Assembly: GCF_004366715.1 (NCBI RefSeq)
Contig: NZ_SOQZ01000002.1
Location: forward strand, 62,001-126,000
Direction of reading: 5' to 3'
Length of the DNA: 64,000 nt
Source of the DNA: Meridianimaribacter flavus
Lineage (GTDB): Bacteria > Bacteroidota > Bacteroidia > Flavobacteriales > Flavobacteriaceae
Shown: in pieces, positions 13,586 through 52,471 of the stretch
Position numbering within the stretch: position 1 is the first letter of the stretch
How the letters are laid out: every line of letters starts with the position of its first letter
Position numbers and translations under genes: made by a program
Notes under the pieces: model-generated
Database searches by the model: none
Seen by the model: only the letters and a program-made list of their open reading frames with translations
Told to the model about the DNA's origin: nothing

Positions 13586-13702
13586 TGTTTGTATTTTTAA
13601 GTAGTAATAATACAAAAATAACGAAAACATCGCTAAAATTTCACTTCTTTGATAGCTTGTTAAAAAAAATCCTGCTTAGATATAAATCTTTCAATTTTTA
13701 GT

Positions 13703-35725: not shown

Positions 35726-35728
35726 AAT

Positions 35729-36630: not shown

Positions 36631-37203
36631 ATGAAATCACTGTTTAAAAAAAGCATGTTACCTCTAGTACTGGTAATAGCAGTATCAACATCTTATAGTC
36701 AAACGCGAAGAAGTACAATTAATGAAAATAGCAGAACTTCAACTAGTACAAGAATTTCAAGTTCTAGAGTGACTTATAAAAAAGAAAAGACAAAAGTTGA
36801 ATCGGTAAGAACTATACCTAATAGAACTGTTTTAAAGCATAATGGACAAAGCTATTATTATGATAACAACAAGTATTATACACTCTCAAGAGGTCGTTAT
36901 ATTGTAATTGCTCCAAAAGTAGGTTTTAAAATAAAAGTATTACCTGCTAACCATAAACGTATCAGCCATAGAGGGTTTAATTATTATTACGCTAACGGTA
37001 TATTTTATGTTCACTTAAACAATGAATATGAAGTGGTTGACCCAGAAGTAGGAACCATTGTAAGTGAATTACCTTCTGGTTATGAAAAGGTAGTAATTGA
37101 CGGTCTTACATACTATGAATATGCAAATATTTTATACGAAAAGATACAAGTCAATGGTACTAGAGCTTATGAAGTTGTGGGTATTATAGATATAGCTTCT
37201 TAG
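36631..37203 (+). CDS. DUF6515 family secreted protein
   Basis: The 190-residue protein has a signal peptide (LVIAVSTSYSQ), a Ser/Thr/Arg-rich linker, and three similar short repeats with LKHNGQSYYYDNNKYYTLSR, HRGFNYYYANGIFYV and IDGLTYYEYANILYE, each followed by VxxxxGxxVxxLP. This tyrosine-rich pattern is that of DUF6515 proteins, exported proteins of unknown role in Bacteroidota. It lies 161 bp after the pump operon and ends at a shared terminator. Confidence 0.8.
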   Translation: MKSLFKKSMLPLVLVIAVSTSYSQTRRSTINENSRTSTSTRISSSRVTYKKEKTKVESVRTIPNRTVLKHNGQSYYYDNNKYYTLSRGRYIVIAPKVGFKIKVLPANHKRISHRGFNYYYANGIFYVHLNNEYEVVDPEVGTIVSELPSGYEKVVIDGLTYYEYANILYEKIQVNGTRAYEVVGIIDIAS

Positions 37204-37239
37204 AAGATTTTTTTATTAAGATTGGTTAGTTTTTTTAAA

Positions 37240-37278
37240 AAAAAGCCAGTTAGTTTATTAATTTCTAACTGGCTTTTT
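37240..37278. terminator. Bidirectional terminator between convergent genes
   Basis: Arms AAAAAGCCAGTTAG (37240-37253) and CTAACTGGCTTTTT (37265-37278) pair perfectly over 14 bp, with an A-run before and T-run after. It serves both the DUF6515 gene and the convergent T9SS cargo gene. Confidence 0.9.
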
Positions 37279-37296
37279 ATGTATTCAAGTTTTTTA

Positions 37297-40200
37297 TTAC
37301 TTCTTAACAATCTTCATTGCGATGTTTAACTCTGGGATGTTTAAAATATAAATACCTGATGCTAATGCCGACATATTGCCTATGGTTGTTCTACCATTAG
37401 TTAATGTCATTTCTTTACTGTACACTGTAGTTCCTAATAGGTTTACTATTTGAACAGTAGATTGAACCGAAGTTGGTAAACTAATTACTAAATTCAATTC
37501 GCTATTAAATGGAAGTGGAAATACTTTCACTTTACTTGTATTAGCGGTTAGGTCTTCAACACTAAGTGTAGGTCCTTGGTTACCTGGTGAACCAATAGCA
37601 GGTTCTCCCATATCGTTACCAGCTGTAGCAACTGGAGCGTAAGGTGCTTCTCCAATAATACTAAAGCCGCCTTTTTCAACATCATAAGACTGTCCTGGGT
37701 AAGCTGCCGTATCAGGATATGCTTCGGCATCAACAATAGTTCCTACAGTTAAAGGATTTCCAATCCATAGTGTTACCATATCACCACCACCAGAAAGACC
37801 AGCACCAGCGTATGTACCTATTTGCACATCAGTAAGGTTATAAACTCCTCCCCAAACAGCAATAAAGTTAGCTGTATCAGCAGCATCGATAGCTACAACA
37901 GACTCTCCTGGTTGTATTGAAGTAATACCACTTATTAATACAGCAGAAGCAGGATCTTGTGAATCATCATCAAAATATAATCCTCCCAAAGCTGGTGTCC
38001 AAGCTACTGGTCCGTTATTAGTAATTTCAAACCAGTCTGCTGTAAGGTTACTACCATCACCATTCCCTGGCCATATTTCAGTAATGTTTAAGATTGGACC
38101 AACAGGTTTATTGTATGCGTTAGGTGTGTTGATCGCTTCTCCTTCTACAGGAGTACCATCTGTAAAGCCTACAAGACCTTCACCATCAAAGTCATTTCTC
38201 ATCCAATCAGCAGTAGTATCAGTATCTACACCATTAGGAATACGAGAGGCACCACCAACTTGAAAACCAATACCATCAAAGTTTGGGTCTAAATCTAAAG
38301 CATATACTAAGTCAGTTGCTCCACCATCTGAACTTGCAATACCATCTACAATTGTATCCCAATACTCAACATCAATAACACCATCGTCATTAGTATCAAT
38401 ATCGTCACCAATAACTCCTGTAAAGTTTTCAACTAATAATAAAGTTATTGTTCCGTTTTCAATAATGTTTGCTTGTAGAGGTGTAGTCCAAAATCCGTTT
38501 TCGTCAGTAGTTCCTAAAGTAAAGGTACCATCATCTATTAATCCTGTTGAACCACTATCACCTTCGATTTCTACAACAGTATATGCTGAGTAATCAGTGA
38601 AAGGATCTCCATAGATTTCAATATATTCAGCAGTATCACCACCTGTGTGGTCAGCCACAAATTCATTGATAACAGGTGTATTAATCACTGGTTCAGTTAC
38701 AGCTCCTAGTGTTACTGTATCGCTTCTAAACTTTTTCCATTCAGCACGATGGTCTTTGTTTTCAGTTCCATCATTATAAATAACTGTAGCTCCTAAATCT
38801 ACTAATAGCTTCACAGTAGCAGTATCACCATCAGTACCAATAAAGGTTGAGCTTGGTAATGCTACTAAACCTTCAAAAGAACCACTTGTGTTTAACGCTG
38901 ATAAATCAGCACTTCTTAGTTCTGGTGTGTCCATTGCATTACCAGTCCATGTATATAATTTAAAGTCTGTTTGCACACTAAATGGACCACCAATTAGTAT
39001 ACATCCATCAGCATTACACTCCATGGTTCTTAAACTTCTTCCGTTTAAATCAATTAAAATAGGAGCTCCAAAAGTAGCAGAACCATCTGCCATTCCTGGT
39101 AAACTGGTAAAATTAGTAACAGGAATTACGATTGCTTTTCCTTCTGAAGTTGAACTACGCAATCCTAAATAAGCTGTTGTTGTACTATTTGGAGCTAAAG
39201 CTAATGCTTCAATTTCTAATATTGTACTCAAACCAAAAAAGTTAGCACCTAAGCCATGAGTATTACTGGCATCCCAAGCTAATAAGTCGTTATGTAAACT
39301 CATGTATTTATCGCCATAGGTAAGGGTAGAAGTAGCACCTGTTCCTGATAGAGTAGTGGTGAATATTAGAGATCTATCTTCTTCTGAAGTAGACCCAATC
39401 CAATAAATTGTGCTTCCTAATTGAAACGATCCTTCCAAATCAGCTTCTTCAGTAATACCAAGTGCAGTATTAAAATCTATTTCTTGAACTGGTAATCCTG
39501 AGTGATTTCCGTTATATAACCTTAAGGTTTGGTCTTCGTCATCACCAATCCAAATGTAATCGTCATCTATAGCAATACCTGTTGAACCATCAGACGCTCC
39601 TGTATGAAAACGACTTGTAGATGCTACTACAGAAGCTTCAGAAGCAGCATAACTAATGGTATAAGTTGCTGCATTCATATCAGTATCTTCAACAGTAACT
39701 GTAATAGTGGTAAACCCTAAAGCAATAGGAGTGATGGTAAGTTGGCGTTCGCCATTAGTTCCTGTTAATACTAGATTGGTATTAGGCACTATAGCTTCGT
39801 CGCTGCTAGTTGCTGTTACTACTAAATCGGCTAGTGGAGTTTCGGCATCATCAATTAAGAATGGAATACCTATTGTACTAGCAGGATCTGTAGGATCATT
39901 AATTACACCACTTACATAACCAGCATTTGTTTGCGGAAGGTTTAAATATGATGTTAAACTAGCTGTATTTACTTCAATAGTAAGGCTTGAAGGTGCTAAT
40001 GGACCCATATTACCAGGAGACCCAACAGCCGATTCATTCATATCATTACCAGCAGTAGCCACAGGTTCATAAGGTAACTCACCAATAACACTAAAGTCGC
40101 CTTTAGTAACGTTATAAGACTGACCAGAATTAAATTCGGTATCAGGATAGGCTTCAACATCTACAATAGCACTTGCATCCACAGGAGCTCCAATGCTCAT

Positions 40201-41136
40201 AAATAGTGTTACAGCGTCTCCGCCACCACCAAGACCAGCACCAGAGTAGGTACCAATTTGAACATTTGTTAAGTTATAGTATGCTCCCCAAACAGCAATA
40301 AACTCTGCAGTATCTGTATCGTCAATAGCTATCACAGCTTCACCAGGTTGAATACTAGTGATTCCGCTAATAAGCGCAGCATCTAAAGGATCTTCAGAAA
40401 CATCATCAAAGTAGAGGTCTCCAGATACAGGAGTCCATAGTCCAGGACCTAAATTGGTGATTTCAAACCAGTCGGCAGTAAGGTTATCACCTTCACCATT
40501 CCCAGGCCATATTTCGGTGATTTGTAAATTTGGTAGAGCAGGACCCATATTACCAGGAGACCCAACAGCCGATTCATTCATATCATTACCAGCAGTAGCC
40601 ACAGGTTCATAAGGTAGCTCACCAATAACACTAAAGTCGCCTTTAGTAACGTCATAAGACTGACCAGGATTAAATTCGGTATCAGGATAGGCTTCAACAT
40701 CTACAATAGCACTTGCATCCACAGGAGCTCCAACACTCATAAATAGCGTTACAGCGTCTCCGCCACCACCAAGACCAGCACCAGAGTAGGTACCAACTTG
40801 AACATTTGTTAAGTTATAGTATGCTCCCCAAACTGCGATAAACTCTGCAGTATCTGTATCGTCAATAGCTATAACAGCCTCACCTGGTTGAATACTAGTG
40901 ATTCCGCTAATAAGCGCAGCATCTAAAGGATCTTCAGAAACATCATCAAAGTAAAGGTCACCCATAGCAGGTGTCCAAGCAACATCACCAACATTGGTGA
41001 TTTCAAACCAGTCGGCAGTAAGATTATCACCATCGCCATTTCCAGGCCATATTTCAGTAATTTGTAAAGAAACCTGCGAGAAACCAGCAAAATAAGTCAA
41101 TAACAGGGCACTAAAAAGTGTAATTTTTTTGTACAT
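37297..41136 (-). CDS. T9SS cargo protein with lamin-tail-like repeats
   Basis: The 1279-residue protein has a signal peptide (ending AGFSQ), two near-identical 180-residue lamin-tail-like (LTD) units (about 22-380), a beta domain (about 385-500), a DUF3616-like region (about 505-790; GRSLRTMECNADGCILIGGP), another LTD-like unit (about 825-1000), a more divergent copy of the first unit (about 1005-1190), and a C-terminal type A sorting domain (about 1203-1279; VFPLPFNSELNLVIS, LASGIYILNI). It should leave the cell by type IX secretion and stay on the surface or be released. LTD units in secreted bacterial proteins are often linked to extracellular DNA or polymer processing; no nuclease motif is seen here. 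Confidence 0.85.
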   Translation of the reverse strand: MYKKITLFSALLLTYFAGFSQVSLQITEIWPGNGDGDNLTADWFEITNVGDVAWTPAMGDLYFDDVSEDPLDAALISGITSIQPGEAVIAIDDTDTAEFIAVWGAYYNLTNVQVGTYSGAGLGGGGDAVTLFMSVGAPVDASAIVDVEAYPDTEFNPGQSYDVTKGDFSVIGELPYEPVATAGNDMNESAVGSPGNMGPALPNLQITEIWPGNGEGDNLTADWFEITNLGPGLWTPVSGDLYFDDVSEDPLDAALISGITSIQPGEAVIAIDDTDTAEFIAVWGAYYNLTNVQIGTYSGAGLGGGGDAVTLFMSIGAPVDASAIVDVEAYPDTEFNSGQSYNVTKGDFSVIGELPYEPVATAGNDMNESAVGSPGNMGPLAPSSLTIEVNTASLTSYLNLPQTNAGYVSGVINDPTDPASTIGIPFLIDDAETPLADLVVTATSSDEAIVPNTNLVLTGTNGERQLTITPIALGFTTITVTVEDTDMNAATYTISYAASEASVVASTSRFHTGASDGSTGIAIDDDYIWIGDDEDQTLRLYNGNHSGLPVQEIDFNTALGITEEADLEGSFQLGSTIYWIGSTSEEDRSLIFTTTLSGTGATSTLTYGDKYMSLHNDLLAWDASNTHGLGANFFGLSTILEIEALALAPNSTTTAYLGLRSSTSEGKAIVIPVTNFTSLPGMADGSATFGAPILIDLNGRSLRTMECNADGCILIGGPFSVQTDFKLYTWTGNAMDTPELRSADLSALNTSGSFEGLVALPSSTFIGTDGDTATVKLLVDLGATVIYNDGTENKDHRAEWKKFRSDTVTLGAVTEPVINTPVINEFVADHTGGDTAEYIEIYGDPFTDYSAYTVVEIEGDSGSTGLIDDGTFTLGTTDENGFWTTPLQANIIENGTITLLLVENFTGVIGDDIDTNDDGVIDVEYWDTIVDGIASSDGGATDLVYALDLDPNFDGIGFQVGGASRIPNGVDTDTTADWMRNDFDGEGLVGFTDGTPVEGEAINTPNAYNKPVGPILNITEIWPGNGDGSNLTADWFEITNNGPVAWTPALGGLYFDDDSQDPASAVLISGITSIQPGESVVAIDAADTANFIAVWGGVYNLTDVQIGTYAGAGLSGGGDMVTLWIGNPLTVGTIVDAEAYPDTAAYPGQSYDVEKGGFSIIGEAPYAPVATAGNDMGEPAIGSPGNQGPTLSVEDLTANTSKVKVFPLPFNSELNLVISLPTSVQSTVQIVNLLGTTVYSKEMTLTNGRTTIGNMSALASGIYILNIPELNIAMKIVKK
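40001..41080 (-). repeat. 540-bp tandem direct repeat inside T9SS gene
   Basis: Two in-frame 540-bp units (40001-40540 and 40541-41080) encode near-identical LTD modules. The DNA match is very high; for example GGACCCATATTACCAGGAGA occurs at 40001 and again at 40541, and most differences are single bases. A third protein-level copy (37560-38095) is clearly more divergent. Confidence 0.9.
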
Positions 41137-42041
41137 AATGTTTGTTTTGGATTAAATGCTGAAATTACTCGTGACATATTATTACAATTGTAACTAAACA
41201 TTATGTATTGGTTAACTAGAGAGATTTTAGAGTTAAATAATTGTTGTGTAGTATATAATACACAACACTAATAGATTAAATGGCATTAGTAAACTATGAG
41301 TTGTAGTTTGAAGTTTGTAGTAGTATTGATTAAGCAATGAATAGGTTATTACTATATAAAATTCTATTTTACATAATATAAATTATAGAACAAATGTTTA
41401 TTTTTATTATTTATAACAAAGAAGCATAATGGTATTCCATTTGTAAGCTATAATGATATTATGTAAAATATCCCAGAAGCTACACGTTACTATTGAATCA
41501 TTGTAACTTGAGCAACTAAACAAAATCGGTCTGCTACGCAGCGTTAATTCATTTGTATCTATAATTTGCCGTTATGTAAAATATCCGCTGCCAACGTTGA
41601 TTGCTTTATAAAACCAAATTGCTGGATGCAATTTATTTTAAACACAATTTCCAGCCGCTTGCCAGCGCATTATAAAAGCTCTGCTTTTCGTCTTGTTGTA
41701 AAATTTGCGTATTCAATAAAATATACGTAACAAAAAATTTTACACGATTCTCGTCAACTTGCCACAAGAGTATAAAATTTCTCTGTGAGCAAATTTCTAT
41801 ACACTTGTTCTATGTAGAACTCTAATTCAAGTTTTCTTTCAGAACTATTAAGATTATGTAGAAATATTATGTAAAGTAGAAATCCTTAAGAAACTGTATT
41901 ACTAAACCCCTAAAATATGACCGCTCCACTCTCCTATTGTTTTAACCAAAGTTTTATGAGGTCATTTAAAACACTCAAATCATATTAAATTATTAAAGTA
42001 TATTTTCATAAATTACAATTTATAAATATTTAAGAATTATT
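41137..42041. other. Gene-free AT-rich region, 905 bp
   Basis: No ORF with recognisable features was found on either strand. It contains the promoter region of the T9SS gene at its left end, a perfect 8-bp stem (GTTGTGTA/TACACAAC, 41243-41266), two copies of TTATGTAAAATATCC (41459-41473 and 41572-41586), and an inverted pair around 41630-41670 (GCTGG and CCAGC flanks). It may be decayed mobile or cassette DNA, or encode an unrecognised RNA; I see no firm support for either. Confidence 0.5.
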
Positions 42042-42767
42042 ATGACCAGAGACTTATCTGAAGAAACACTTGTTGTTGTACCAGCTTACAATGCTCATAA
42101 TACTATACATAAAGTAATAGAACAAATATTTCAAAGTGGATTTAAAGAGATAATAATTAGTGATGATTGTAGCGCAATACCAATCTTACCAATTTTAAGT
42201 TCTTTTAAAAATCAAATAATTCTTATTGAACAACCAAAAAATTTAGGTTATGGAGGAAACCAAAAATTCTTATATGAATATGCATTAAAAAATAATTATA
42301 ATTATATTGTTATGATTCATGGAGATTTGCAATATACTCCAACACTAATTCCTTCATTAGTAACAATGTTAAAATATGCAAAATACGACTTTGTATTTGG
42401 TTCAAGAATATTAGGAGGAAATGCGATTAAAAATGGAATGCCAATAATTAAATACATAGCAAATAGATGTCTTACATTATTTCAAAATATATTAACTGGT
42501 TATAAACTTTCAGAATATCATAGTGGATTAAGAGCATACAATATTGAAACATTAAAAAATATAAAATTTCATGAATTTTCAAATAATTTTATATTTGACA
42601 ATCAAATGCTTTTGGCAATAATAAAAAACAAATATAAAATTGGAGAAGTTTCTTGTACAACTAAATATGATACTAACTCATCATCAATAAGTTATAAGGA
42701 ATCTACTATTTATGCATTTGGAGTCATAAAGCTAACCTTAATTCATTTTTTTAAAAACATTCTTTAA
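42042..42767 (+). CDS. GT2 glycosyltransferase, polyprenyl-phosphate sugar synthase-like
   Basis: The 241-residue protein has the GT-A fold of family 2: VVVPAYNAHNTIHKVIEQIF at the start, EIIISDDCS, NLGYGGNQKFLYEYAL, and the metal-binding HGDLQY where DPM1-like enzymes have DxD/DAD. Later VFGSRILGG and YHSGLRAYN fit the same group. It should transfer a sugar from a nucleotide donor to a lipid phosphate. It lacks membrane helices. Its 3' end overlaps the convergent membrane-protein gene by 17 bp. Confidence 0.85.
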   Translation: MTRDLSEETLVVVPAYNAHNTIHKVIEQIFQSGFKEIIISDDCSAIPILPILSSFKNQIILIEQPKNLGYGGNQKFLYEYALKNNYNYIVMIHGDLQYTPTLIPSLVTMLKYAKYDFVFGSRILGGNAIKNGMPIIKYIANRCLTLFQNILTGYKLSEYHSGLRAYNIETLKNIKFHEFSNNFIFDNQMLLAIIKNKYKIGEVSCTTKYDTNSSSISYKESTIYAFGVIKLTLIHFFKNIL

Positions 42768-44193
42768 AATAATAAACCTTAACACCATTAGATGAGAGTT
42801 CATCGATTAATTCAAACTCATAAACTTCATTAAAACTATCTATATCAATAATATCAAATCTGTTTATTAATATATTTTCTTTGTCTTTATGAAATTCTAA
42901 ATAATTCTTTTGTGCAGAAATAATATCTATTAATTTATTATTAGAATTCAACATTGAAATTAAAACAAAATTATCATGAATTGCTATTTTTTTATCGCCT
43001 TTTGGTAATAAATCAATTTTTTTATTAACACTATGATATTCTGTAAATTCTTCTCGACCAAATTCTTTTAACATATCAAAGTTGTTAAAAGTTAAAAATA
43101 AACACATAATAAGCGTTAAAGGATAAACTATATTTTTAAATATCTGATTATTATTCTTTTTGCCAAAAATCATATATCCTATTAACAACGGAAGAGTATT
43201 AAACATATATCTAAAACTTTCAAAATGTGTTATTTTTCCGGCTTCAATTGCATATTGTCCTCTATAATGAAAACTATATAGTATGATAAAAGCTAACCAA
43301 ATTGAAATTAAAATCAATGAATTTTTTGATGGTTTTTTTGATAACAATATGAAAATTAAGAGTATAAAAAAACCATCAAACCTAAAAAATGAAACTAAAT
43401 ATGTTGGAAATTGAAAAATGAAATAATCAATAGAAAAAGTACTCCTACCTAAATAGTTAGCTTCTAACCCTTCTGTATAAAAGGGGTTAATGATGTATTG
43501 CGATAAAATCAAGCAAAAAATGAAAAACAAAAATCCTAGATTTCTGGCTAGAGATTTAGGGTTTATAAGAATTAAAGTGCTAAGATAAATGAGGTTCTCT
43601 CTTTTGACAACAACTAATAATAAAAGTAAGGCAAAAGAAACCCATAACCACAATTTATTCCTTTTTAGTATATGTTGATGGAGACTTAATATAAAAATTA
43701 AAGCTACGCAAAATGATAAGTTTTCTATTAATCCACTATTTAGTACATAAACAACAGGTAAACAAGATATAAATGAAAACATAAGAGTTATGCCTAATAA
43801 ATTATCTTTATATAATACAAAAATCAATAAAAAACATAATCCAAATAAAAGTGCATTTCCAAATTTATGTATTAAATATTGGTTTTGTACGTCGAAAATT
43901 TTTGCAACTGTAAACAGGTATGCAGAATAGCTAACATAATGTCCTGTATAAGATGAGACAGATATGCATTTACCATTAACTCTTGATTCACATCCTTGTG
44001 TCCTAAACTCTTTTATAAAAGGGATTAAATTCTCCTGACTAGAAACGTGAGAACTTATAAAAGAATCTTCATATTCGAATCCATAAAATTTTATTGATTG
44101 AAGTGGCTTGAATACTATAGCTAATCCTAAAACTAGTATAATACCCATTAGGTAAAACCTATGGCTTTTCCAAAAATGGCTTAACTTTAGCAT
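42751..44193 (-). CDS. Polytopic membrane protein, GT-C-like, end of Hxs operon
   Basis: The 480-residue protein has about ten to eleven membrane helices spread through residues 15-385, and a soluble C-terminal 90 residues. An extracytoplasmic loop after the first helix contains YEDSFISSHV, which recalls the acidic first loop of GT-C glycosyltransferases, but no family is firmly recognised. The start at 44193 overlaps the end of the HxsC gene by 35 bp; a second ATG at 44148 would avoid the overlap. It is probably cotranscribed with hxsADBC. Confidence 0.65.
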   Translation of the reverse strand: MLKLSHFWKSHRFYLMGIILVLGLAIVFKPLQSIKFYGFEYEDSFISSHVSSQENLIPFIKEFRTQGCESRVNGKCISVSSYTGHYVSYSAYLFTVAKIFDVQNQYLIHKFGNALLFGLCFLLIFVLYKDNLLGITLMFSFISCLPVVYVLNSGLIENLSFCVALIFILSLHQHILKRNKLWLWVSFALLLLLVVVKRENLIYLSTLILINPKSLARNLGFLFFIFCLILSQYIINPFYTEGLEANYLGRSTFSIDYFIFQFPTYLVSFFRFDGFFILLIFILLSKKPSKNSLILISIWLAFIILYSFHYRGQYAIEAGKITHFESFRYMFNTLPLLIGYMIFGKKNNNQIFKNIVYPLTLIMCLFLTFNNFDMLKEFGREEFTEYHSVNKKIDLLPKGDKKIAIHDNFVLISMLNSNNKLIDIISAQKNYLEFHKDKENILINRFDIIDIDSFNEVYEFELIDELSSNGVKVYYFKECF

Positions 44194-45298
44194 ATTTTAT
44201 ATTCCAAGTAAAGAATCCAGAGCAATCTTTTTTCATTAAGCATCTCTCACATTCAGGTTTAAAACTGTTTTTCCAATCAGAAATTGATTGTTTAGCATAA
44301 CTCCAAAGTGATTCTGGAATATGACATAAAGGTGTATTATATATTGAAACATTATACTTCCAACTAGAAAGAAATTTTAATGAGGCAAGAAGATTTTCTT
44401 CTGCCATAGTTGTATTTTCTTCAATTAGTTCAGATTTATTAGCTTTAGTATAACCAATAATTTCTAACCCCATAAAAGTCACATGATAAACAAATGGAAA
44501 ATTTTTATGTATAAATTTAGAAAGTGATAACAATCTAGGGTTCGAGAGTTTATGCAATACAACCCTTATTTCAACAGGAAAACCTAAACTACTTATTTTA
44601 TGAATACCTAAACAAGTTTGATAAAATGCATCTTTAGCTTGAACTATATGATCATGTATTTTGTATACATCTGAATATAAAGGAATTGCAAAAACTACAT
44701 TTTTTCTGTACCTAATATTACTTAAAGTATCAATTACATTTTCTAGGGCTAGCATTCTTCCGTTTGACAAAATTGTTATTAATAAATCCGGAAATTTATC
44801 AAGTATTTTGTTAATTAATAAGACTAACCTTTCACCTAATAAAGTTGGTTCACCACCTGTAATTGTTAAGTGTCTAGGAGAATTATTTAATAAATCTATA
44901 GTATAATTCCAAATAAGATAATTTTCTAAAGTATCGTCCACATCTAAAGGTGGTTGACTGCACATCAAACAATTTGAATTACATCTAATTGTTGCAAAGA
45001 TAAAATTGTTGTTACTTTTAGTTCTATATACAGACCTAATTTTAGAGTTTTTGACAGAAATAATATCACCAATTTCTATATCATTAAGCCCTTTTATATT
45101 AGAAAGAGAATTATCTTCTAATCTATCAGTGCTATCCAGATAGAATAATTTAAATCTATCAGTTTTCAAGTCTTTTCCTTCTAAAATAACGGATAATTCT
45201 TGATTTTTAATTTCTTTAGATATAACACGACCAACAAATAATTCACTACTTGACATGTGTATTTTCCCTTTCCAAGAAAGTTTAATTTCCTCATTCAT
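44159..45298 (-). CDS. hxsC: His-Xaa-Ser system radical SAM maturase HxsC
   Basis: The 379-residue protein has a radical SAM cluster motif in TIRCNSNCLMCSQPP near residue 105 (CxxxCxxC) and TITGGEPTLLGE downstream. A C-terminal cysteine group (CERCLMKKDCSGFF, near 348) probably binds an extra iron-sulfur cluster. The CNSNC-MCSQPP wording is characteristic of HxsC, one of the paired radical SAM enzymes of the Hxs system. It overlaps hxsB by 8 bp. Confidence 0.88.
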   Translation of the reverse strand: MNEEIKLSWKGKIHMSSSELFVGRVISKEIKNQELSVILEGKDLKTDRFKLFYLDSTDRLEDNSLSNIKGLNDIEIGDIISVKNSKIRSVYRTKSNNNFIFATIRCNSNCLMCSQPPLDVDDTLENYLIWNYTIDLLNNSPRHLTITGGEPTLLGERLVLLINKILDKFPDLLITILSNGRMLALENVIDTLSNIRYRKNVVFAIPLYSDVYKIHDHIVQAKDAFYQTCLGIHKISSLGFPVEIRVVLHKLSNPRLLSLSKFIHKNFPFVYHVTFMGLEIIGYTKANKSELIEENTTMAEENLLASLKFLSSWKYNVSIYNTPLCHIPESLWSYAKQSISDWKNSFKPECERCLMKKDCSGFFTWNIKYAKVKPFLEKP

Positions 45299-46778
45299 TA
45301 TTTACCCAAGATTTAAAGATTTCTAATGTATCAGGCTCGTTATCTATCTTATTAAAAATTATATCTAAAACAGACATATTACGCTGACAAAAACTACTAT
45401 CTGGGCGGAAACCATACATATCTCCTTGAGTTGCGTGATGCAAGACAGGGTCAGCACCACAATAAATGTTATATGCACATGTGCTACAACCTGCTATATA
45501 ATCGTTAACACCAGCATCTCCAATTTTCTCTATAATTGGATTAGAAAGTAAAGTCTCCCAGTTATCGTCAACAGTACCTATCTGAAAAGTGAAATCTTTC
45601 ATTTGTGCAAGCATTCTAGCTTCGTCAATCAAAAAAATTTTCCCATCATAATCGTAAACAATTACACTATTTATTAATCCAGACGGAGACATTAAATCAA
45701 CGTAGTTTTCGGAATAAGCAGTAAGTATTTTTTTTAGAAGTATTGAGGTGTATGTTTCCTTAAAATATTCTCCGTTTCGATTTAGTTCTAATATGTAGTC
45801 TAATCCTTTACTATAAAATTTTATAAACTCAACAGTTTGATAATTGCTATTCTTGTTTTTAGTTGCAAAACCATAAGGAGAAATAGGTCTAAGGAAAACA
45901 GAATTAAATCCGAATTTTCTGTATTCATCAATTATTTTAATTGGATGTTGAAGAGATAAAGTTGTTGTTGTCATTAAAGCTGATACATTTTCTCTTCCAA
46001 CAATATCAAAAGATAAATTTAATCCTTTCTCTACTAAAGAGTAGCTATTTCTACCTGGTCTCTTTCTATTATCATTATGTAATTCTTCGTGACCATCAAG
46101 TGAACAAGAAACGAGAATTTTTTCCAATTTACAGTATTCAAGAATTTCATTATTAATAGGAGCTAGATTTGTACAAATAACATAATTGATTCGTTTGTTT
46201 ACTAACTTTGCTTTTTTTTTTGTGTAAGCTATAGCATCTTTGATCAAATCAAAAGCTAATAAAGCCTCACCACCTTGAAACTCCATAGTTATATCCTTTT
46301 CAGGAGAAGCAAGCATTAAATTAATACCCTTAAAAAGATTTAGGTGAGAAAAATCGAACTTCTCTTTATTTTGAGAAACTCTCGAAACTTGGCAATATTG
46401 ACAAGTATGTTCACATCGTAAAGTAATGACAAAAATATGGAGTTGGGCAAAATTAAAAGCATTTGTCTTTTTTGCTCTATATCTATTTGCTAGTAATTCT
46501 AATGATTTAATGTCATCACTATCACTTATAATATGATTGCTTAACAAATCAAAATACAAACTCTCACTTATTTTATCAATTTTCTTTTCTAATAAATAAT
46601 TAACAGTACCATTAGGTGCTATTAAGTAATCACCAACCATACTAATGAGAAGTTCTTTTCCAGAATTTAGCCTTTTAAAATTAAAAGGTAATAATTTTAT
46701 ATTGTTTGAAATTAAGTCGTTATAATATTCAAGGTTTTGAAATTTTCTAAATTCTTTTCTTAAAGTGTTAATTTCCAT
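45291..46778 (-). CDS. hxsB: His-Xaa-Ser system radical SAM maturase HxsB
   Basis: The 495-residue protein has LRCEHTCQYCQVSR near residue 120 (radical SAM CxxxCxxC), MEFQGGEALLAF, and a SPASM-like C-terminal cysteine region (GCSTCAYNIYCGADP near 430 and FCQRN near 463) for auxiliary clusters. This is the HxsB pattern; relatives in the SPASM class modify ribosomal peptides by radical chemistry. Its likely target is the HSS-repeat precursor encoded two genes upstream. It overlaps hxsD by 11 bp. Confidence 0.9.
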   Translation of the reverse strand: MEINTLRKEFRKFQNLEYYNDLISNNIKLLPFNFKRLNSGKELLISMVGDYLIAPNGTVNYLLEKKIDKISESLYFDLLSNHIISDSDDIKSLELLANRYRAKKTNAFNFAQLHIFVITLRCEHTCQYCQVSRVSQNKEKFDFSHLNLFKGINLMLASPEKDITMEFQGGEALLAFDLIKDAIAYTKKKAKLVNKRINYVICTNLAPINNEILEYCKLEKILVSCSLDGHEELHNDNRKRPGRNSYSLVEKGLNLSFDIVGRENVSALMTTTTLSLQHPIKIIDEYRKFGFNSVFLRPISPYGFATKNKNSNYQTVEFIKFYSKGLDYILELNRNGEYFKETYTSILLKKILTAYSENYVDLMSPSGLINSVIVYDYDGKIFLIDEARMLAQMKDFTFQIGTVDDNWETLLSNPIIEKIGDAGVNDYIAGCSTCAYNIYCGADPVLHHATQGDMYGFRPDSSFCQRNMSVLDIIFNKIDNEPDTLEIFKSWVNNE

Positions 46779-47088
46779 TTTTCTTTAAAATATTGATAGG
46801 ATCATCGAATTCACCAATATCTTTAAATTTAATTAAATCTGGATAAAAGGCTTTTGAAACTACTAAATTCTTTATGTCTTTAGTTTCAATGTTAATTTGT
46901 TCTCTTAAAGAAAAATCATTTAATGATTTTATAAAGTCTTTTTTTATAGTTTCATTAAAATCATCAGATGAGATATTGAAGAAATTTTCATCTTCAGTAA
47001 GTAGAATTTCAAAATCTTTGGAAAACCAATATATTGTATTCCTTATAGCTTCTAATTTATAAACACTTTTTTGTAAAACTATCACCAT
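46768..47088 (-). CDS. hxsD: His-Xaa-Ser system protein HxsD
   Basis: I start the gene at the ATG at 47088, giving 106 residues (MVIVLQKSVYKLEAIRNTIYWF). The longer frame to 47172 only reads the HSS repeat of the precursor in another frame. The hallmark of HxsD (LLNDYxLRE) is present as SLNDFSLRE near residue 62. Its exact role is unknown; it may present the peptide to the maturases. The start overlaps the hxsA stop in TAATG, a sign of translational coupling. Confidence 0.85.
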   Translation of the reverse strand: MVIVLQKSVYKLEAIRNTIYWFSKDFEILLTEDENFFNISSDDFNETIKKDFIKSLNDFSLREQINIETKDIKNLVVSKAFYPDLIKFKDIGEFDDPINILKKNGN

Positions 47089-47372
47089 TAAACAAAAGAA
47101 GAAGAAGAGTGTGATGAATGAGATGAATGCGATGAGTGTGATGAGTGAGATGAATGTGATGAGTGAAAACAAGCAACACTATCTTCAAAATTGTTAAAGT
47201 TTACTTTAAGCGTAAATTCTTTTGATCTATTTTTATTTAAATCTCTGACATCAATAGATTTTAAATTATCTTTATCATTGTTAGTATCAGTTTTTAAATC
47301 TACAACAGCAGCAGAGGCTATTGTACTTGAACCTAATATTGAGCTTAAAGCTAAAAGAACCTTTTTATCCAT
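47088..47372 (-). CDS. hxsA: His-Xaa-Ser repeat precursor peptide HxsA
   Basis: The 94-residue protein has a hydrophobic N-terminus resembling a signal peptide (LLALSSILGSSTIASAA), a leader-like middle (about 22-68) and a C-terminal core of seven HSS repeats after ACF, ending SSSSFV. It is the presumed substrate of HxsB and HxsC, whose genes follow directly. The final product may be exported, given the N-terminus. It is the first gene of the operon. Confidence 0.88.
   Translation of the reverse strand: MDKKVLLALSSILGSSTIASAAVVDLKTDTNNDKDNLKSIDVRDLNKNRSKEFTLKVNFNNFEDSVACFHSSHSSHSSHSSHSSHSSHSSSSFV
47103..47165 (-). repeat. Seven 9-bp repeats encoding HSS in hxsA
   Basis: Seven in-frame 9-bp units of the form CAY TCN TCN encode His-Ser-Ser. 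Codon third positions vary (CAC/CAT, TCA/TCT/TCG), so the protein repeat appears to be under selection rather than the result of very recent slippage. Confidence 0.9.
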
Positions 47373-47396
47373 TGATTTGTGTATTATATTGAAGTA

Positions 47397-47427
47397 TAAA
47401 TATATATAAACTCATTGAGTTTACAAA
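47397..47427 (-). promoter_or_regulatory. Putative hxs operon promoter
   Basis: On the minus strand TTTG (47427-47424) is followed after 19 nt by TATATTTA (47404-47397), close to the Bacteroidota pattern TTTG-N19-TAnnTTTG. The hxsA ATG lies 24 nt further on. Confidence 0.5.
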
Positions 47428-47778
47428 AAAAGAAAGCAAATAATATTTTTTTAAAAGTAACGTTATTACATTATAATATTATTTTTGATGTATTTCACAT
47501 CATTTTGTTAAATAAACCCATTTCATACACATTTCCTCTTCGCTCCTATCTTCGCTTCGAGCAAACGTATTCTATTACATTTTTAAGAAAAATTTAGAAA
47601 GAAAAAAATAAAGAAAATGAAGTATTAAACTTTCGCTTTTTATCCAAAGCTCAAGTTACATAACGCGAGAACATTATAGCAAGTAAATCTATAAGTTGTA
47701 TACGATTTATGTATTTTGAGAAAGAATATCCTATTTAAAAAAAAATAAGTTTTTAAGTGTTACTTATAAAGTAATTTT
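47428..47778. other. Spacer upstream of hxs operon, no gene called
   Basis: This divergent AT-rich spacer of about 440 bp in total holds the hxs promoter on its left and the promoter of the 47814 gene on its right. A plus-strand ORF at 47415-47597 overlaps the hxs promoter and has no coding-like features, so it is not called. Confidence 0.5.
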
Positions 47779-47786
47779 TAATTTTG
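47779..47786 (+). promoter_or_regulatory. Putative -7 box of small secreted protein gene
   Basis: TAATTTTG fits TAnnTTTG and lies 27 nt before the ATG at 47814. Confidence 0.45.
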
Positions 47787-47813
47787 AGAATATTAAATTA
47801 AATCCTTCCAAAA

Positions 47814-48185
47814 ATGAAATCATTAATAATATTGTCCTTTTTATTTGGCATTACTTTTAATTCTATTGCACAGGAGTCTTCAATTAAAAGAGAACTTGAT
47901 AGTTTGAAAACAGTACATGCTGTTTGTGATATAACTTCTCAAATAGGAAAAAACATAAAAACACATGATAGTTTAAGTAAGATTCAAGAGAAATATAAAA
48001 GTCAATATTTAGACATTCAAAGTTTTAAAATAGGAAGAACAAAATTAGATAAAGAAAAGCAAATTAAAGAGATAAATACTTTAATTGAAAATAATGATAA
48101 AGCTATTATTGAGAATCGAGCTTTATATCATAGTTTACTAGAAAAATTAAAAGTTGCAGAAGAAAAAGTTAAACTTCTGAATTGA
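47814..48185 (+). CDS. Small secreted coiled-coil protein
   Basis: The 123-residue protein has a signal peptide (LFGITFNSIAQ) and a highly charged, mostly helical mature part with heptad-like spacing (IKEINTLIENNDKAIIENRA, LLEKLKVAEEKVKLLN). No family is recognised. It is divergent from the hxs operon and shares its very AT-rich composition; a link to it is only positional. Confidence 0.7.
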   Translation: MKSLIILSFLFGITFNSIAQESSIKRELDSLKTVHAVCDITSQIGKNIKTHDSLSKIQEKYKSQYLDIQSFKIGRTKLDKEKQIKEINTLIENNDKAIIENRALYHSLLEKLKVAEEKVKLLN

Positions 48186-48412
48186 TTTATTTTTTATAAA
48201 TAAGCCATCTCTCCCACTCTTCTCCTACTTTCCTTCGAGGTTTCTTCGGCAAACACCTTATTTTACAAAGAAATCCCGAAGCATTCCCGAAGGATTCTCG
48301 AACTACTGTATCTTTAAAATAATGTATTTCATCGGTATTTTTATACATTTTATCGATATTTTATATTTTTTTTACTACTTTAGTGATAGTCAATGTTTTA
48401 AATACAACTATT

Positions 48413-49051
48413 ATGGGAACGTATAACAATGGAGTTTTGGGTGGTTTTTCTGGTAAGGTTGGTACTGTAGTAGGCAGCCAATGGCGTGGTAAACAAGTAA
48501 TGCGCAGTGTACCAACAGCGTCCAAGAAGGCACCAAGTGCTGCTCAACTTCAACAACGTGCTAAGTTTAGTTTTGCGCTTCGTTTTTTAAATCCTATTAA
48601 AGGCTTGCTTTCCATTACGTTTGGTGATAATACAGGTAGCAAAACGCCTTTTAACAATGCCTTGTCCTACCATCTTAAAGAGGCTATAACTGTTACCGAT
48701 ACAGGTTTTGAGCTGTTATACTCTAAAGTGCTGATTGGTATGGGAGGCTTGTGTGGCATCAGTAATGCTGTGGTTACCCACTCCAACCCTACTACGCTTT
48801 CATTAACATGGCAAAACAATAGTAACGAGGGTTTAGCCTACCCAAACGATAGCCTAATTGTTATAGCTTATGCACCACAACTGGAGGCTTTTGAGTTTTT
48901 TATTGAGTGTAGTTTTAGGGAACTTAGTCAATGTGAACTTGTGTTTCCTGAGCATTTTCAAGGACATACGCTACAGCTTTGGGCTACTTTTAATAATGCT
49001 ACTAAGGTGTTAAGTGCAACGAGTACGTATTTGGGTGCTGTTGTTTTGTAA
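48413..49051 (+). CDS. DUF6266 family protein
   Basis: I use the ATG at 48413 (MGTYNNGVLGGFSGKVGTVVGS), since the family starts this way; the frame upstream to 48383 is non-conserved. The 212-residue protein continues with WRGKQVMRSVPTASKKAPSA, PFNNALSYHLKEAI and a fibronectin-like C-terminal part. DUF6266 proteins are common in Bacteroidota with unknown function. Composition is nearer to the genome average than the hxs region, so the AT-rich island ends before it. Confidence 0.85.
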   Translation: MGTYNNGVLGGFSGKVGTVVGSQWRGKQVMRSVPTASKKAPSAAQLQQRAKFSFALRFLNPIKGLLSITFGDNTGSKTPFNNALSYHLKEAITVTDTGFELLYSKVLIGMGGLCGISNAVVTHSNPTTLSLTWQNNSNEGLAYPNDSLIVIAYAPQLEAFEFFIECSFRELSQCELVFPEHFQGHTLQLWATFNNATKVLSATSTYLGAVVL

Positions 49052-49188: not shown

Positions 49189-51003
49189 TCAATGTTTATG
49201 TATAGGAATGTTAATATAGCTATCGTTATACCACTTTATTGTTAAAGGTTCTTTAGCATCTTTAATGGTTTCGTCACTTACGTCTTTTCCTGTACCATAG
49301 TTTATTTGTGAAAAAGGATGTTTTATTCCATTAACAAGAACAACTATTCGACTTCCTTTTTTTAGCATCTTACTCGTCATTCTAAAATTACTAATAGGTA
49401 TTGCGGTCTTTTCATTTGGTGCTAACAAGTTTCTGTTTTCAATGTTTTTAGACATACTTGCTCTGGTTGTAAATGGCAGTGTTAAACTAAAAAATTGGCC
49501 GTCAGCGGTTTGTTCATAAAGCAACACATTACAATCAAAATCCTTTTTATTGATAGACAGATTTAAAACGCCACTTATCGCTCCTGTAAGCTCTGTATCT
49601 TCTTCAAAAGGTTCTGTTGCAAACGAGAAGCCTTGACCTACAGTTAAAGTATTTGATACAAGGTTACGATTACCACTTAAATTCCAAGAGAATTGACTAC
49701 GATCAGACATATCAATTGTTTGTTCAATATAACTTGAGGCATCAGCTGTATGAACTAAACTAAAGTGTTCGTTTACATCTAAATTTCCTGTGTCATAAGT
49801 CGACTTAAACGCTACACCAGAACGTTGTTGACTTAAATACACCTTTAAAGTATCTGTAGCCATTTTATCTAATGAAGATGCATGTTTCCAAGTATTGGTA
49901 CCCATAACTTGATAATTGATTTTATCCTTTAACAAAGCAGGTTTATTAGCATCTTTAAAAATATAATCAAACCATTGAAAGATGAGGGCTTTAATATCTA
50001 TTTGAGCTACTGGGTCTATATCATAACCTAGAATGTGTTTTTCAGGATGTTCTTGCGCTCCAAAATGTGAATAAGGTCCTATTAAAAGGTACTGCTCAGC
50101 ATTGGTATGGTATTGATAATGGGATTTTAAATAGTGCATTGTTCCAAATTGTCCACCATCATAATACCCTGTAGTACTTAAGATAGGTATATCTATTTTA
50201 GCAAAATCTGTTTTGTTATACAGTGTCATACCTTTCCAGTAGTTATCAAATGTTGGATGTTTCAGTTTTTCATTGAATCCTGGATTTGGAAGACCATCTA
50301 AACTATCTAAACGTTTATAAGCAACACCTTTTTTATACCAATCCAAATACAACTCATTCCAGCGTTTACCATTATAATACAAAGTGGTATCGAGGGTTTT
50401 GTTATTGGTTACATAATGCCACCAAGGATAATGAAAGTTAAAATAAACACCATTTTCCATAGGTTCAGCAATACCAGGAGCCGCAGCTACTGAAGGTACA
50501 ATAGTTTTTAAAGCTGGATGTACTTTTTCTTTCATTGAAGCCCATTGTACAAAACCAGCATAACTACCACCATACATACCCACTTTGGCATTGCTCCACT
50601 CTTGCTTTGCAATCCAATCAATAACATCGTACACATCGTTGACCTCATGTACATAAGGTGTTATTGTATTTGGACTTAAATGTTTTCCTCGAGTGTATGA
50701 TACCACACCTACATAGCCTTTATCGGCTGCTTCATAAGCTCTTTTGATATCATCTTTACGCGTATATATGGTATGGAATAGTATGGTTGGCTGTGGTTTT
50801 GTTTCAGCTTTACTCCTAACAATTATAGCAGATATTTTTGCACCATCTCTAGTGGTGATTAGCACAGAGTCTTGTACCAAATATGCTTTACCTTCTCTAT
50901 TTACGGTTCTGGGTTCTTGTTGTGCTTCGGTTATTGAATTACAAGCAACCAACACTAATAGCAGTAAAAAAAATGTGCCCTTTAATAGTTTAAATACTCT
51001 CAT
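49189..51003 (-). CDS. CocE/NonD family hydrolase (X-Pro dipeptidyl-peptidase S15-like)
   Basis: The 604-residue protein has a lipobox (LLVLVACNS), an alpha/beta-hydrolase domain with nucleophile elbow GMYGGSYAGFVQW near residue 147, DWIAKQEWSNAKVG before it, and the C-terminal beta jelly-roll of the CocE group (from about 400). It should hydrolyse an ester or amide bond (acyl-peptide, glutaryl or similar) in the envelope. The true substrate is open. Confidence 0.9.
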   Translation of the reverse strand: MRVFKLLKGTFFLLLLVLVACNSITEAQQEPRTVNREGKAYLVQDSVLITTRDGAKISAIIVRSKAETKPQPTILFHTIYTRKDDIKRAYEAADKGYVGVVSYTRGKHLSPNTITPYVHEVNDVYDVIDWIAKQEWSNAKVGMYGGSYAGFVQWASMKEKVHPALKTIVPSVAAAPGIAEPMENGVYFNFHYPWWHYVTNNKTLDTTLYYNGKRWNELYLDWYKKGVAYKRLDSLDGLPNPGFNEKLKHPTFDNYWKGMTLYNKTDFAKIDIPILSTTGYYDGGQFGTMHYLKSHYQYHTNAEQYLLIGPYSHFGAQEHPEKHILGYDIDPVAQIDIKALIFQWFDYIFKDANKPALLKDKINYQVMGTNTWKHASSLDKMATDTLKVYLSQQRSGVAFKSTYDTGNLDVNEHFSLVHTADASSYIEQTIDMSDRSQFSWNLSGNRNLVSNTLTVGQGFSFATEPFEEDTELTGAISGVLNLSINKKDFDCNVLLYEQTADGQFFSLTLPFTTRASMSKNIENRNLLAPNEKTAIPISNFRMTSKMLKKGSRIVVLVNGIKHPFSQINYGTGKDVSDETIKDAKEPLTIKWYNDSYINIPIHKH

Positions 51004-51018
51004 TTAATTGTATTGGTT

Positions 51019-51630
51019 TTATTTTGAATACTCAATTAACTCTTCGGTATAAGAAAAACCGTCTTGTACTTGGGTCATTTTTATAAAGTTCTTGATTTTT
51101 GGAGCATACAACCATACTTCATCTGTTTTGGCACTATAGCCTCTTGAATTAGAAATAGTTCCTTTATAGGTTATGGTGTAAGCCATAAATGTCCCTGCTC
51201 CTACAGTTTCTTTTTTAAAGGATAATACTTCTACATCCTGACTTTGTTTTCCGGTAGTACCATCTTGACTAGTCCAGTCTTTTTCATAGGTCCATGTTTT
51301 ACCAACTTCCAAAGGCCATTTATATCTTGGTGTTTCACTGTCTTCAGGCTTTACAATATCAGAGACTAAAACGGTATCCTTGTCTATAGTCATTCCTAAT
51401 TCACCATTAAAATCAACAATGGTTCTAGTATCTGTTCCATCAGATCGTACTTCGCCTTCATCAGTAACGCCTTTGTATTTCCATACCCATTTTTCTCCCA
51501 AGTTATAATCAGATAGTACAGGTTGATTAGTGACTGTTGCTTCTGGATTGTTTTTGCAAGATGTTAGAAGCAATACTATTATAGCTACTACTAATTTTGC
51601 CAAAAATTTTTGAACTGTAAAAGATTTCAT
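51019..51630 (-). CDS. Lipoprotein of unknown function in LytTR regulon
   Basis: I use the ATG at 51630 (MKSFTVQKFLAK), which gives a lipobox (IVLLLTSCKNN) and 203 residues; the frame upstream to 51729 would run through the putative operator. The mature part is beta-rich, with WVWKYKGVTDEGEVRSDGTD, WPLEVGKTWTYEKDW and MAYTITYKGTISNS; this resembles lipoproteins of a DUF3108-like kind, without certainty. It lies 15 bp before the CocE gene, with which it may be cotranscribed. Upstream it shares a motif with the LytS/LytTR operon. Confidence 0.72.
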   Translation of the reverse strand: MKSFTVQKFLAKLVVAIIVLLLTSCKNNPEATVTNQPVLSDYNLGEKWVWKYKGVTDEGEVRSDGTDTRTIVDFNGELGMTIDKDTVLVSDIVKPEDSETPRYKWPLEVGKTWTYEKDWTSQDGTTGKQSQDVEVLSFKKETVGAGTFMAYTITYKGTISNSRGYSAKTDEVWLYAPKIKNFIKMTQVQDGFSYTEELIEYSK

Positions 51631-51690
51631 AATTTTCGTTTTTAATGATTTACAATACAAATTAAGGGCAGGTTTTACATTTATAAAACA

Positions 51691-51726
51691 AAAAGTACAG
51701 GAGCGTAACATAACAGCATTGAACGT
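51691..51726 (-). promoter_or_regulatory. Putative LytTR operator upstream of lipoprotein gene
   Basis: On the minus strand ACGTT (51726-51722) and ACGCT (51706-51702) form a direct pair with a 20-bp period; the second runs on as ACGCTCCTGTACTTTT. The same arrangement, with the same CCTGTACTTTT, stands before the kinase gene at 53619-53584. LytTR regulators bind paired short direct repeats about two helical turns apart, so this is a good candidate site. It lies 72-96 nt before the ATG. Confidence 0.6.
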
Positions 51727-51748
51727 CAAAAATTGGCGTCATTTATAT

Positions 51749-52471
51749 TTAAAGACTATTCCAATTCCTAAACTTAACAGATTGACGACTAGACACATCG
51801 ATTGTTTCTCCCGAAGTTAATTTAATTTGCAATCTATTATTAAAGTGCGGATAAATCTCCTGTATATAGTGTATGTTAATAATTTGACTTCTATTGGCTC
51901 TAAAAAATACGTTAGGGTCTAATTTTTCTTCTAAAAGATTTAATGAACGCTTAATCATTGCTTTTTGAGTTCCAAAATATAAGCGTGCGTAATTTTCGAG
52001 CGATTCAATGTAGCGAATATCAGACAGAGGAATAAAATGACACTGTTCACCATCTTTGATAAAAATTTTGCGATGCATTGGGAATACCTCAGGAGTGGTC
52101 TTTCTTTTCTTAAAAAGTTCTTGTTTTACCTTTTCTATAGTTTTAGCAAAACGTTCTTCGCGCAAGGGTTTCACCAAATAATCTAAAGCGTTCAATTCGA
52201 AAGCTTTTACTGCATACTGATCATAAGCTGTAGTAAACACAACTTCTGGAACAGTTCCAAGTTCTTCTAATAAATCAAAACCAGACTTTTCAGGCATATG
52301 AATGTCTAAGAAAATAATGTCTGGTGCTTCAGTCTCAATAATTTGGATGGCTTCATCTACATGCGATGCCTCTCCAACAACCTGAAATTCTTTGTGTGGC
52401 TTTAAAGTACGCTTTAACTCTTCTCTCGCTAAACGCTCATCGTCTATTATAATGGTTTTAAATGTCTTCAT
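51749..52471 (-). CDS. LytTR-type response regulator
   Basis: The 240-residue protein has a receiver domain (IIIDDERLAREELKRTL, phospho-Asp in DIIFLDIHMPEKSG near 56, TTAYDQYAVKAFELNALDYLVKP) and a C-terminal LytTR domain (HRKIFIKDGEQCHFIPLSDI, ANRSQIINIHYIQEIYPHFN). It overlaps its kinase gene by 14 bp and probably binds the paired ACGYT sites upstream of this operon and of the neighbouring lipoprotein gene. Confidence 0.94.
   Translation of the reverse strand: MKTFKTIIIDDERLAREELKRTLKPHKEFQVVGEASHVDEAIQIIETEAPDIIFLDIHMPEKSGFDLLEELGTVPEVVFTTAYDQYAVKAFELNALDYLVKPLREERFAKTIEKVKQELFKKRKTTPEVFPMHRKIFIKDGEQCHFIPLSDIRYIESLENYARLYFGTQKAMIKRSLNLLEEKLDPNVFFRANRSQIINIHYIQEIYPHFNNRLQIKLTSGETIDVSSRQSVKFRNWNSL

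Follow-up and report, generated by a model that had tools for sequence, protein, structure and literature searches.

A complete His-Xaa-Ser (Hxs) gene set and an Hxs-linked membrane protein family in Meridianimaribacter flavus

The hxs genes and their products

The window analysed here is a stretch of 64,000 nucleotides from Meridianimaribacter flavus, positions 62,001-126,000 on the forward strand of contig NZ_SOQZ01000002.1 (GCF_004366715.1). On its minus strand lie four genes in the order hxsA-hxsD-hxsB-hxsC, encoding a repeat-containing precursor peptide, the small protein HxsD and two different radical S-adenosylmethionine (SAM) enzymes of the His-Xaa-Ser (Hxs) peptide-modification type (Table 1). 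Their frames overlap by 1, 11 and 8 bases, the ATG of hxsD and the stop of hxsA having one base in common. The order, the short overlaps, the seven repeats and the two radical SAM enzymes are all as given in the initial annotation of this DNA, which had assigned 42751-47372 as a whole to the Hxs operon. The four hxs genes had been located correctly, but a fifth gene in the same interval was overlooked. It encodes a membrane protein of 480 amino acids (aa), overlaps hxsC by 35 bases and meets a convergent GT2 glycosyltransferase gene tail to tail, with an overlap of 17 bases. The GC content of the genes and gaps from 42042 to 48185 is 22-29%, compared with 32.3% for the whole window.

Table 1. 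Coordinates of the hxs genes, their adjoining genes and the parts of HxsA in the window
Feature	Position	Strand	Description
hxsA	47088-47372	-	94-aa precursor with seven His-Ser-Ser units; open reading frame with sub-cut-off matches to four HxsA models
HxsA signal-peptide-like N-terminus	47307-47372	-	about residues 1-22; charge/hydropathy rule
FTLKVN	47199-47216	-	counterpart of the LVLKLN-type motif ahead of the core in many Bacteroidota HxsA
HxsA core (HSS)x7	47103-47165	-	seven 9-bp units; third codon positions alone vary
hxsD	46768-47088	-	106 aa; ATG at 47088
hxsB	45291-46778	-	495-aa radical SAM maturase, SPASM-like C-terminal cysteines
hxsC	44159-45298	-	379-aa radical SAM maturase, C-terminal four-Cys set
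Fifth gene	42751-44193	-	480 aa from the first ATG; multi-pass membrane protein
GT2 glycosyltransferase	42042-42767	+	convergent; polyprenyl-phosphate-sugar-synthase-like; PF00535

A search with the hidden Markov models TIGR03976-TIGR03979, which had been proposed as a check of the initial annotation, supported three of the four proteins. HxsB scored 556.3 bits against a cut-off of 370 (TIGR03978), HxsC 321.3 against 267.9 (TIGR03977) and HxsD, scanned from an upstream TTG, 73.7 against 50 (TIGR03976), whereas HxsA reached 30.0 of the 121.65 bits needed for TIGR03979. The initial annotation would have been refuted by HxsB, HxsC and HxsD scores under these cut-offs, and so withstands this check. 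The other HxsA models of NCBIfam were not passed either (HxsA2, 29.4 against 48; HxsA4, 28.2 against 55; HxsA3, 16.0 against 65), and the window HxsA is an Hxs-type precursor that stands outside the four named HxsA sub-families. With three curated models passed and a repeat precursor encoded directly upstream of hxsD, the set is complete, as had been claimed. A second HxsA was not found elsewhere in the 3.2-Mb genome (TIGR03979, E<=1). The -33/-7 promoter pattern typical of Bacteroidota gave three matches where 7.05 were expected, none of them ahead of hxsA. Sigma-70-like sites numbered 67, against 56.0 (standard deviation 6.0) in shuffled sequences, a count that is not informative because the DNA is so AT-rich.

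For comparison we collected 96 related loci, which underlie all locus counts given here: the best 80 of at least 556 stretches in named genomes that encode some HxsB relative, and need not all be Hxs, together with 10 viral loci, 5 plasmid loci and locus L032. There is some redundancy in the set: L033 is nearly the same as L118, and one organism name is shared by L069 and L088. Judged by record title, over half of the best 80 are from Bacteroidota, the rest coming from Pseudomonadota, Acidobacteriota, Cyanobacteriota, Planctomycetota and others. The enzyme alignments, window included, hold 97 rows for HxsB and 95 for HxsC.

The radical SAM and C-terminal cysteines that are conserved among these relatives are all present in the window HxsB and HxsC. 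Counting the window row, C122, C126 and C129 of HxsB are kept in 95 of 95 rows, C431, C434 and C440 in 97 of 97 and C464 in 96 of 97. The corresponding figures for HxsC are 93 of 94 rows for C106, 93 of 93 for C110 and C113, and 95 of 95 for C325, C350, C353 and C359. Among the strongly conserved residues of the two enzymes that were listed, a single departure was seen, W292 of HxsC being replaced by Ile in the window. In a quick tree of 93 HxsB rows (L032, L049, L124 and L127 left out) the window HxsB groups with mostly Bacteroidota relatives, on an end branch of 1.58 compared with a median of 0.3. Against solved structures, an HxsB profile matched 5wgg, a 453-residue radical SAM protein, at 1.4e-18, and the anaerobic sulfatase maturase 4k37 at 1.1e-16 over profile positions 119-442. 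The best of the other NCBIfam models was that of the thioether-forming PapB (96.5 bits). The sulfatase maturase model gave 66 bits against a cut-off of 349.45, and none of the known families of three-residue cyclophane-forming enzymes was passed (YhhB, 56.9 against 445; GrrM-OscB, 41.9 against 310; FxsB, 29.7 against 370).

In the core of HxsA, SSFV follows the seven HSS units. The 9-bp copies that encode these units differ solely at positions 3, 6 and 9, which are third codon positions, and the uniform protein repeat therefore looks maintained by constraint. We found 98 HxsA-like open reading frames (ORFs) in 89 of the 96 related loci; six of the seven loci lacking one have less than 1.5 kb ahead of hxsB, and L088 has more. 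After L118 had been left out as a duplicate, 97 of these were aligned with the window HxsA, giving 636 units. The third position is Ser in 634 of them, a count favoured by the H-x-S pattern with which the ORFs were chosen, and the second position varies freely (Ser 280, Arg 123, Ala 83, Tyr 67, and others). Since the third position is a near-constant Ser and the second is not, the modified unit is probably His plus the Ser at i+2. The all-Ser core, singled out in the initial annotation for its uniformity, is unusual and yet not unique, as 2 of the 98 related ORFs are also all-Ser (L051 with six units and L086 with seven). Two or three HxsA-like precursors occur in eight loci (L051, L053, L077, L081, L091, L101, L104 and L105); some of the extra ones lie after hxsC, and their repeat letters are often different.

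A signal-peptide-like start was found in 90 of the 97 HxsA tested, window included and L078 left out, by a simple charge-plus-hydropathy rule made for this analysis, which is not SignalP. In 89 of the 97 an AxA-like site is also present, and this stricter rule picked up 18 of 97 HxsB and 7 of 95 HxsC used as controls. Furthermore, PG_binding_1 was detected (E<=0.01) in 38 of 98 HxsA, the window HxsA not being among them. The frequency of the signal-like start, together with the PG_binding_1 domains, points to a role in the envelope, and we infer that HxsA is exported and located there, in some lineages bound to peptidoglycan and elsewhere free. A loose LVLK-like pattern lies within 32 residues ahead of the core in 43 of 97 HxsA; the FTLKVN of the window is a possible recognition site.

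HxsD was matched in 78 loci, of which 67 passed a filter; with L099 and L112 removed, 65 sequences were aligned with that of the window. The AlphaFold2 model built from these 66 sequences is confident, with a predicted local distance difference test (pLDDT) score of 88.9, and shows a beta-alpha-beta-beta-long alpha arrangement (E2-6, H12-22, E29-32, E36-40, H46-81). No solved structure was matched by Foldseek at E<=0.001. The best-scoring neighbours in structure are designed proteins, of which several have a ferredoxin fold; first among them is the designed beta-sheet heterodimer 7mwq_B at Z 8.2, a level common by chance. Chains titled RRE or PqqD were absent from the best 50 rows of each fold comparison, which excludes nothing. 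HxsD may act as a helper or in recognition; in the model, an exposed edge of its sheet could take up the leader strand of HxsA.

The 480-residue protein family and the occurrence of hxs

By a simple rule, nine hydrophobic stretches were counted in the product of the fifth gene. When this one sequence was searched against all ORFs of the 96 loci, a homolog was found in L080, from an Acidobacteriaceae metagenome-assembled genome, located directly after hxsC on the opposite strand (3.7e-9). A profile of the two sequences then detected a second homolog directly before hxsA in L045, from Robiginitalea marina (1.4e-25), and a three-sequence profile gave nothing further that was convincing in the 96 loci, one fragment scoring 0.0099. 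The family is thus found beside hxs in 3 of 97 loci, window counted, in three different arrangements and on three separate HxsB branches, and a single copy was found in each of the three genomes. It is an Hxs-linked family for which no model was found.

In wider searches, strong relatives were again seen only beside hxs genes. With all candidates scored, the three-row profile gave matches in 2 of 50 and 0 of 34 hxs-bearing genomes or records, the search of the 34 having no positive control. Among 296 genomes of the phylum, the window genome had the only strong match, and one marginal partial match (9.3e-6) was seen among the other 295. The 480-aa protein used as a single query gave one match (8.7e-4) in 298 other genomes of the host's taxonomic family and none at 1e-6 in 394 other genomes of the phylum. 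In the searches of 394 and 295 phylum genomes, at most four first-look candidates per genome were scored among the matches listed. No strong relatives were found in viral and plasmid collections. The resulting enrichment, 2 of 79 hxs-bearing genomes as against no strong match in 295 other phylum genomes (Fisher p 0.044), compares sets that differ in phylum and is not an independent test, because the profile was built from the same three loci.

The two homologs match PMT_2 with 23.0 and 21.2 bits (1e-4 and 3.8e-4), below the cut-off of 26.1. The L045 homolog also matches DUF6541 below cut-off, and that of L080 scores 19.2 against the 80 needed for the hexose transferase WsfD. All three members of the family have an EYEDS motif and two cysteines near the N-terminus in common; such acidic residues sit in the catalytic loop of GT-C enzymes. 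The neighbouring GT2 gene of the window is well supported by PF00535 (71.3 bits against 23.3), and its best NCBIfam matches are AglJ (55.8 against 325) and the polyprenyl-phospho-GalNAc synthase PpgS (52.8 against 370). No counterpart of it was found at E<=1e-3 in the 96 related loci. It is a possible maker of a sugar donor, with a putative link to hxs. The sub-threshold PMT_2 matches of the homologs and the convergent GT2 gene suggest that the 480-aa protein is a candidate lipid-sugar glycosyltransferase (GT-C).

The hxs genes are themselves patchily distributed around the host. HxsC passed its cut-off in 1 of 198 genomes of the host's circle of relatives and HxsB in 1 of 395 genomes of the phylum, host included, and in both cases the one genome was the host itself; one further HxsB scored 361.9 against 370. 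HxsB-like matches were found on 414 plasmid records (E<=1e-20), 317 of them from Klebsiella, at 10 viral-contig loci and in two phage records, including Leptospira phage vB_LnoZ_CZ214-LE1. This patchy occurrence, together with the low GC content, suggests that the hxs block was gained horizontally. Two relatives share 49189-53543 with the window at 66-87% identity and match the genes at 34694-36469 at just 30-38%. As regards an empty insertion site, no counterpart of 36631-49051 was found in 19- and 20-kb stretches of the two relatives.

Some further genes in these surroundings may be recorded. The window encodes at 37297-41136 a protein of 1279 aa with long near-identical internal repeats, the C-terminus of which, read by eye, resembles a type IX secretion sorting signal. 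In 9 of the 96 loci, drawn from several phyla, there is a thermonuclease-like gene at most about 6 kb away from hxsB (L036, L045 at 13184-13681, L052, L085, L093, L096, L100, L107 and L110), and that of L036 is annotated 'thermonuclease family protein'. A SAM-dependent methyltransferase-like family, one member of which was read by eye, occurs in 8 of the 96 loci, beside hxsB in L047, L053 and L067 and near hxs in L075, L086, L110, L115 and L117.

Predicted pathway and rival explanations

The reading that we favour, with a probability of roughly 0.6, is that hxsADBC is a working Hxs peptide-modification operon, the product of which is an envelope peptide exported via Sec and, in this organism, perhaps glycosylated. 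In this scheme the newly made HxsA would comprise a signal peptide, a short leader strand and the seven-unit His-Ser-Ser core. HxsB and HxsC, assisted by HxsD, would act in turn on its His-x-Ser units in the cytoplasm; the His ring would be joined to the Ser two residues on, as in the three-residue cyclophanes of triceptides, and HxsC would carry out a second, different step. The modified HxsA would then be exported through Sec and act in the cell envelope, perhaps in metal binding or as a structural component. Finally, at the external side of the membrane, the GT-C candidate may add sugars from a polyprenyl-phosphate donor to the exported, Ser-rich HxsA. This last step is doubtful, even though the substrate and the membrane side fit it. 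A distinct Hxs sub-type, with a His-Ser bridge in each HSS unit followed by glycosylation of the remaining Ser by an Hxs-linked GT-C after Sec export, is a still less likely refinement.

Several findings weigh against this picture. The window HxsA, although recognisable, is below every HxsA cut-off. The 480-aa protein has no meaningful match in Pfam, NCBIfam or PHROGs, and none to PMT_2 in particular; its AlphaFold2 model, built from three sequences, is of low confidence (pLDDT 39.8), and the family profile found no relative by sequence among the solved structures of the PDB. The family is absent from 94 of the 97 hxs loci, and its gene could belong to a sugar locus that travelled with hxs. 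As for the chemistry, a His-Ser bond is not predicted by the kinship of HxsB, because the enzyme scores PapB above the cyclophane families.

The strongest rival takes up the point about travelling genes. It holds that the Hxs system is an ordinary one and that the 480-aa protein and the GT2 glycosyltransferase are unrelated envelope-sugar cargo abutting on it in a mobile block. We rate it a little short of even odds, and with regard to glycosylation it is at least as likely. Besides the many loci that lack the family, it is favoured by neighbours of a sugar type, namely the GT2 gene in the window and a gene beside the L045 homolog that, by eye, resembles a polysaccharide deacetylase. Furthermore, an integrase-like gene (also by eye) adjoins the hxs genes of L080, and the AT-richness of the window block and the confinement of HxsC to the host among its relatives are consistent with a mobile origin. 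Chance association explains less well why, on three HxsB branches, the family directly adjoins hxs in as many arrangements and no further copy was found in any of the three genomes, when the 295 other phylum genomes yielded, among the matches listed, a lone marginal partial match; the 35-base overlap with hxsC also speaks for a connection.

The working operon could also carry a different chemistry. A His-Ser(i+2) bond is our favoured product, tentatively, by analogy with reviewed compounds. It is chemically reasonable in view of the bonds known from triceptides, in which His and Ser both occur as partners, though in different members, and from bicyclostreptin. According to passages of PMC11002830, triceptide bonds are formed at i,i+2; His is linked through C2 to the Cbeta of Ala by HaaB and of Arg by YhhB, a similar His-Ala bond is made by ScaB, MscB links Phe to the Cbeta of Ser, and a pathway with two radical SAM enzymes links Ser and His in bicyclostreptin. 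The main chemical rival, which we consider improbable, is that HxsB oxidises the core Ser, for example to formylglycine, or alters it in another way without a crosslink. Anaerobic sulfatase maturases oxidise Ser to formylglycine, and the match of HxsB to both the sulfatase maturase model and the solved enzyme, as well as the constancy of Ser as acceptor across HxsA units, would agree with such a reaction. It leaves the strict His at every third residue without explanation, however, and the sulfatase maturase score is far under its cut-off and is exceeded by those of several peptide maturase models. The loss of 2 Da per crosslink that was put forward in the initial annotation as a mass-spectrometric sign is insufficient alone to prove a crosslink, since conversion of Ser to formylglycine entails an equal loss.

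That the operon is decaying and the system perhaps inactive is very unlikely. The long end branch of HxsB in the quick tree, which may indicate fast evolution, and the short, uniform and sub-cut-off HxsA could be taken as signs of decay, but the frames are intact and overlapping, the conserved cysteines are present and the seven core repeats vary purely at third codon positions. The intact overlapping frames, the models passed and the third-position-only variation also led us to reject a chance repeat or mis-called ORFs. Anti-phage defence was rejected, PADLOC having returned only pVip (viperin) over the radical SAM part of HxsB (5.3e-7) and HxsC (1.6e-6), as was a phage origin, since a PHROGs scan of two proteins, HxsA and the 480-aa protein, gave no match.

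Comparison with known systems

Hxs systems are widespread, yet we found no structure of an Hxs product in the open-licence literature, in agreement with the initial annotation, which knew of none that was settled; subscription literature lay mostly outside this scope, so the absence is unproven. In PMC9062424, with reference to Haft and Basu, HxsB and HxsC are given as annotated families, and a single His-Xaa-Ser peptide is mentioned that is unrelated; a passage of PMC8446631 lists hxsA-D in a Pseudomonas genome. The terms His-Xaa-Ser and Hxs are absent from PMC10352776. Against this background, the window HxsA offers a clean substrate: its seven HSS units are identical, with none of the Arg, Ala or Tyr that are usual in such units, and no second domain was found in the 94-aa peptide. 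Its signal-like start and its peptidoglycan-binding relatives narrow the likely function to that of a peptide of the cell envelope. The membrane protein linked to hxs represents a concrete, testable extra step. If the proposed glycosylation is true, the 480-aa protein and its Robiginitalea and Acidobacteriaceae relatives would be a new family of peptide glycosyltransferases.

The window shares with the Hxs systems of NCBIfam the gene set and the over-cut-off HxsB, HxsC and HxsD, and the order A-D-B-C is also found on Leptospira plasmid pLiSL34 and in Hymenobacter and Adhaeribacter. It differs from them in its sub-cut-off HxsA with a uniform HSS core and no peptidoglycan-binding domain, and in the extra membrane protein. 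The latter resembles PMT_2 and other GT-C proteins as a multi-pass membrane protein with an invariant EYEDS and two Cys, whose homologs match PMT_2; in contrast to these, the matches are below the PMT_2 cut-off, the window protein has none, and strong relatives were seen only beside hxs.

With the triceptide enzymes XncB, OscB, MscB, HaaB and YhhB, the system has in common an aromatic-x-acceptor unit at i,i+2 and a radical SAM enzyme with C-terminal cysteines. HxsB is, however, far under their family cut-offs, and the Hxs side has a pair of radical SAM enzymes, HxsD and a core built of many repeat copies. The bicyclostreptin-type hgh cluster (HghA/B/C/D), as described in a passage of PMC11002830, is similar in having one precursor, two radical SAM enzymes, a small D protein and Ser-His chemistry. 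HghD is called an RRE protein in that passage, whereas HxsD is modelled as beta-alpha-beta-beta-alpha, and the passage describes no repeat array for HghA. The Hxs system is thus an already known and chemically unsolved one, to which the window adds a precursor below the cut-offs of the named sub-families and an Hxs-linked membrane protein family.

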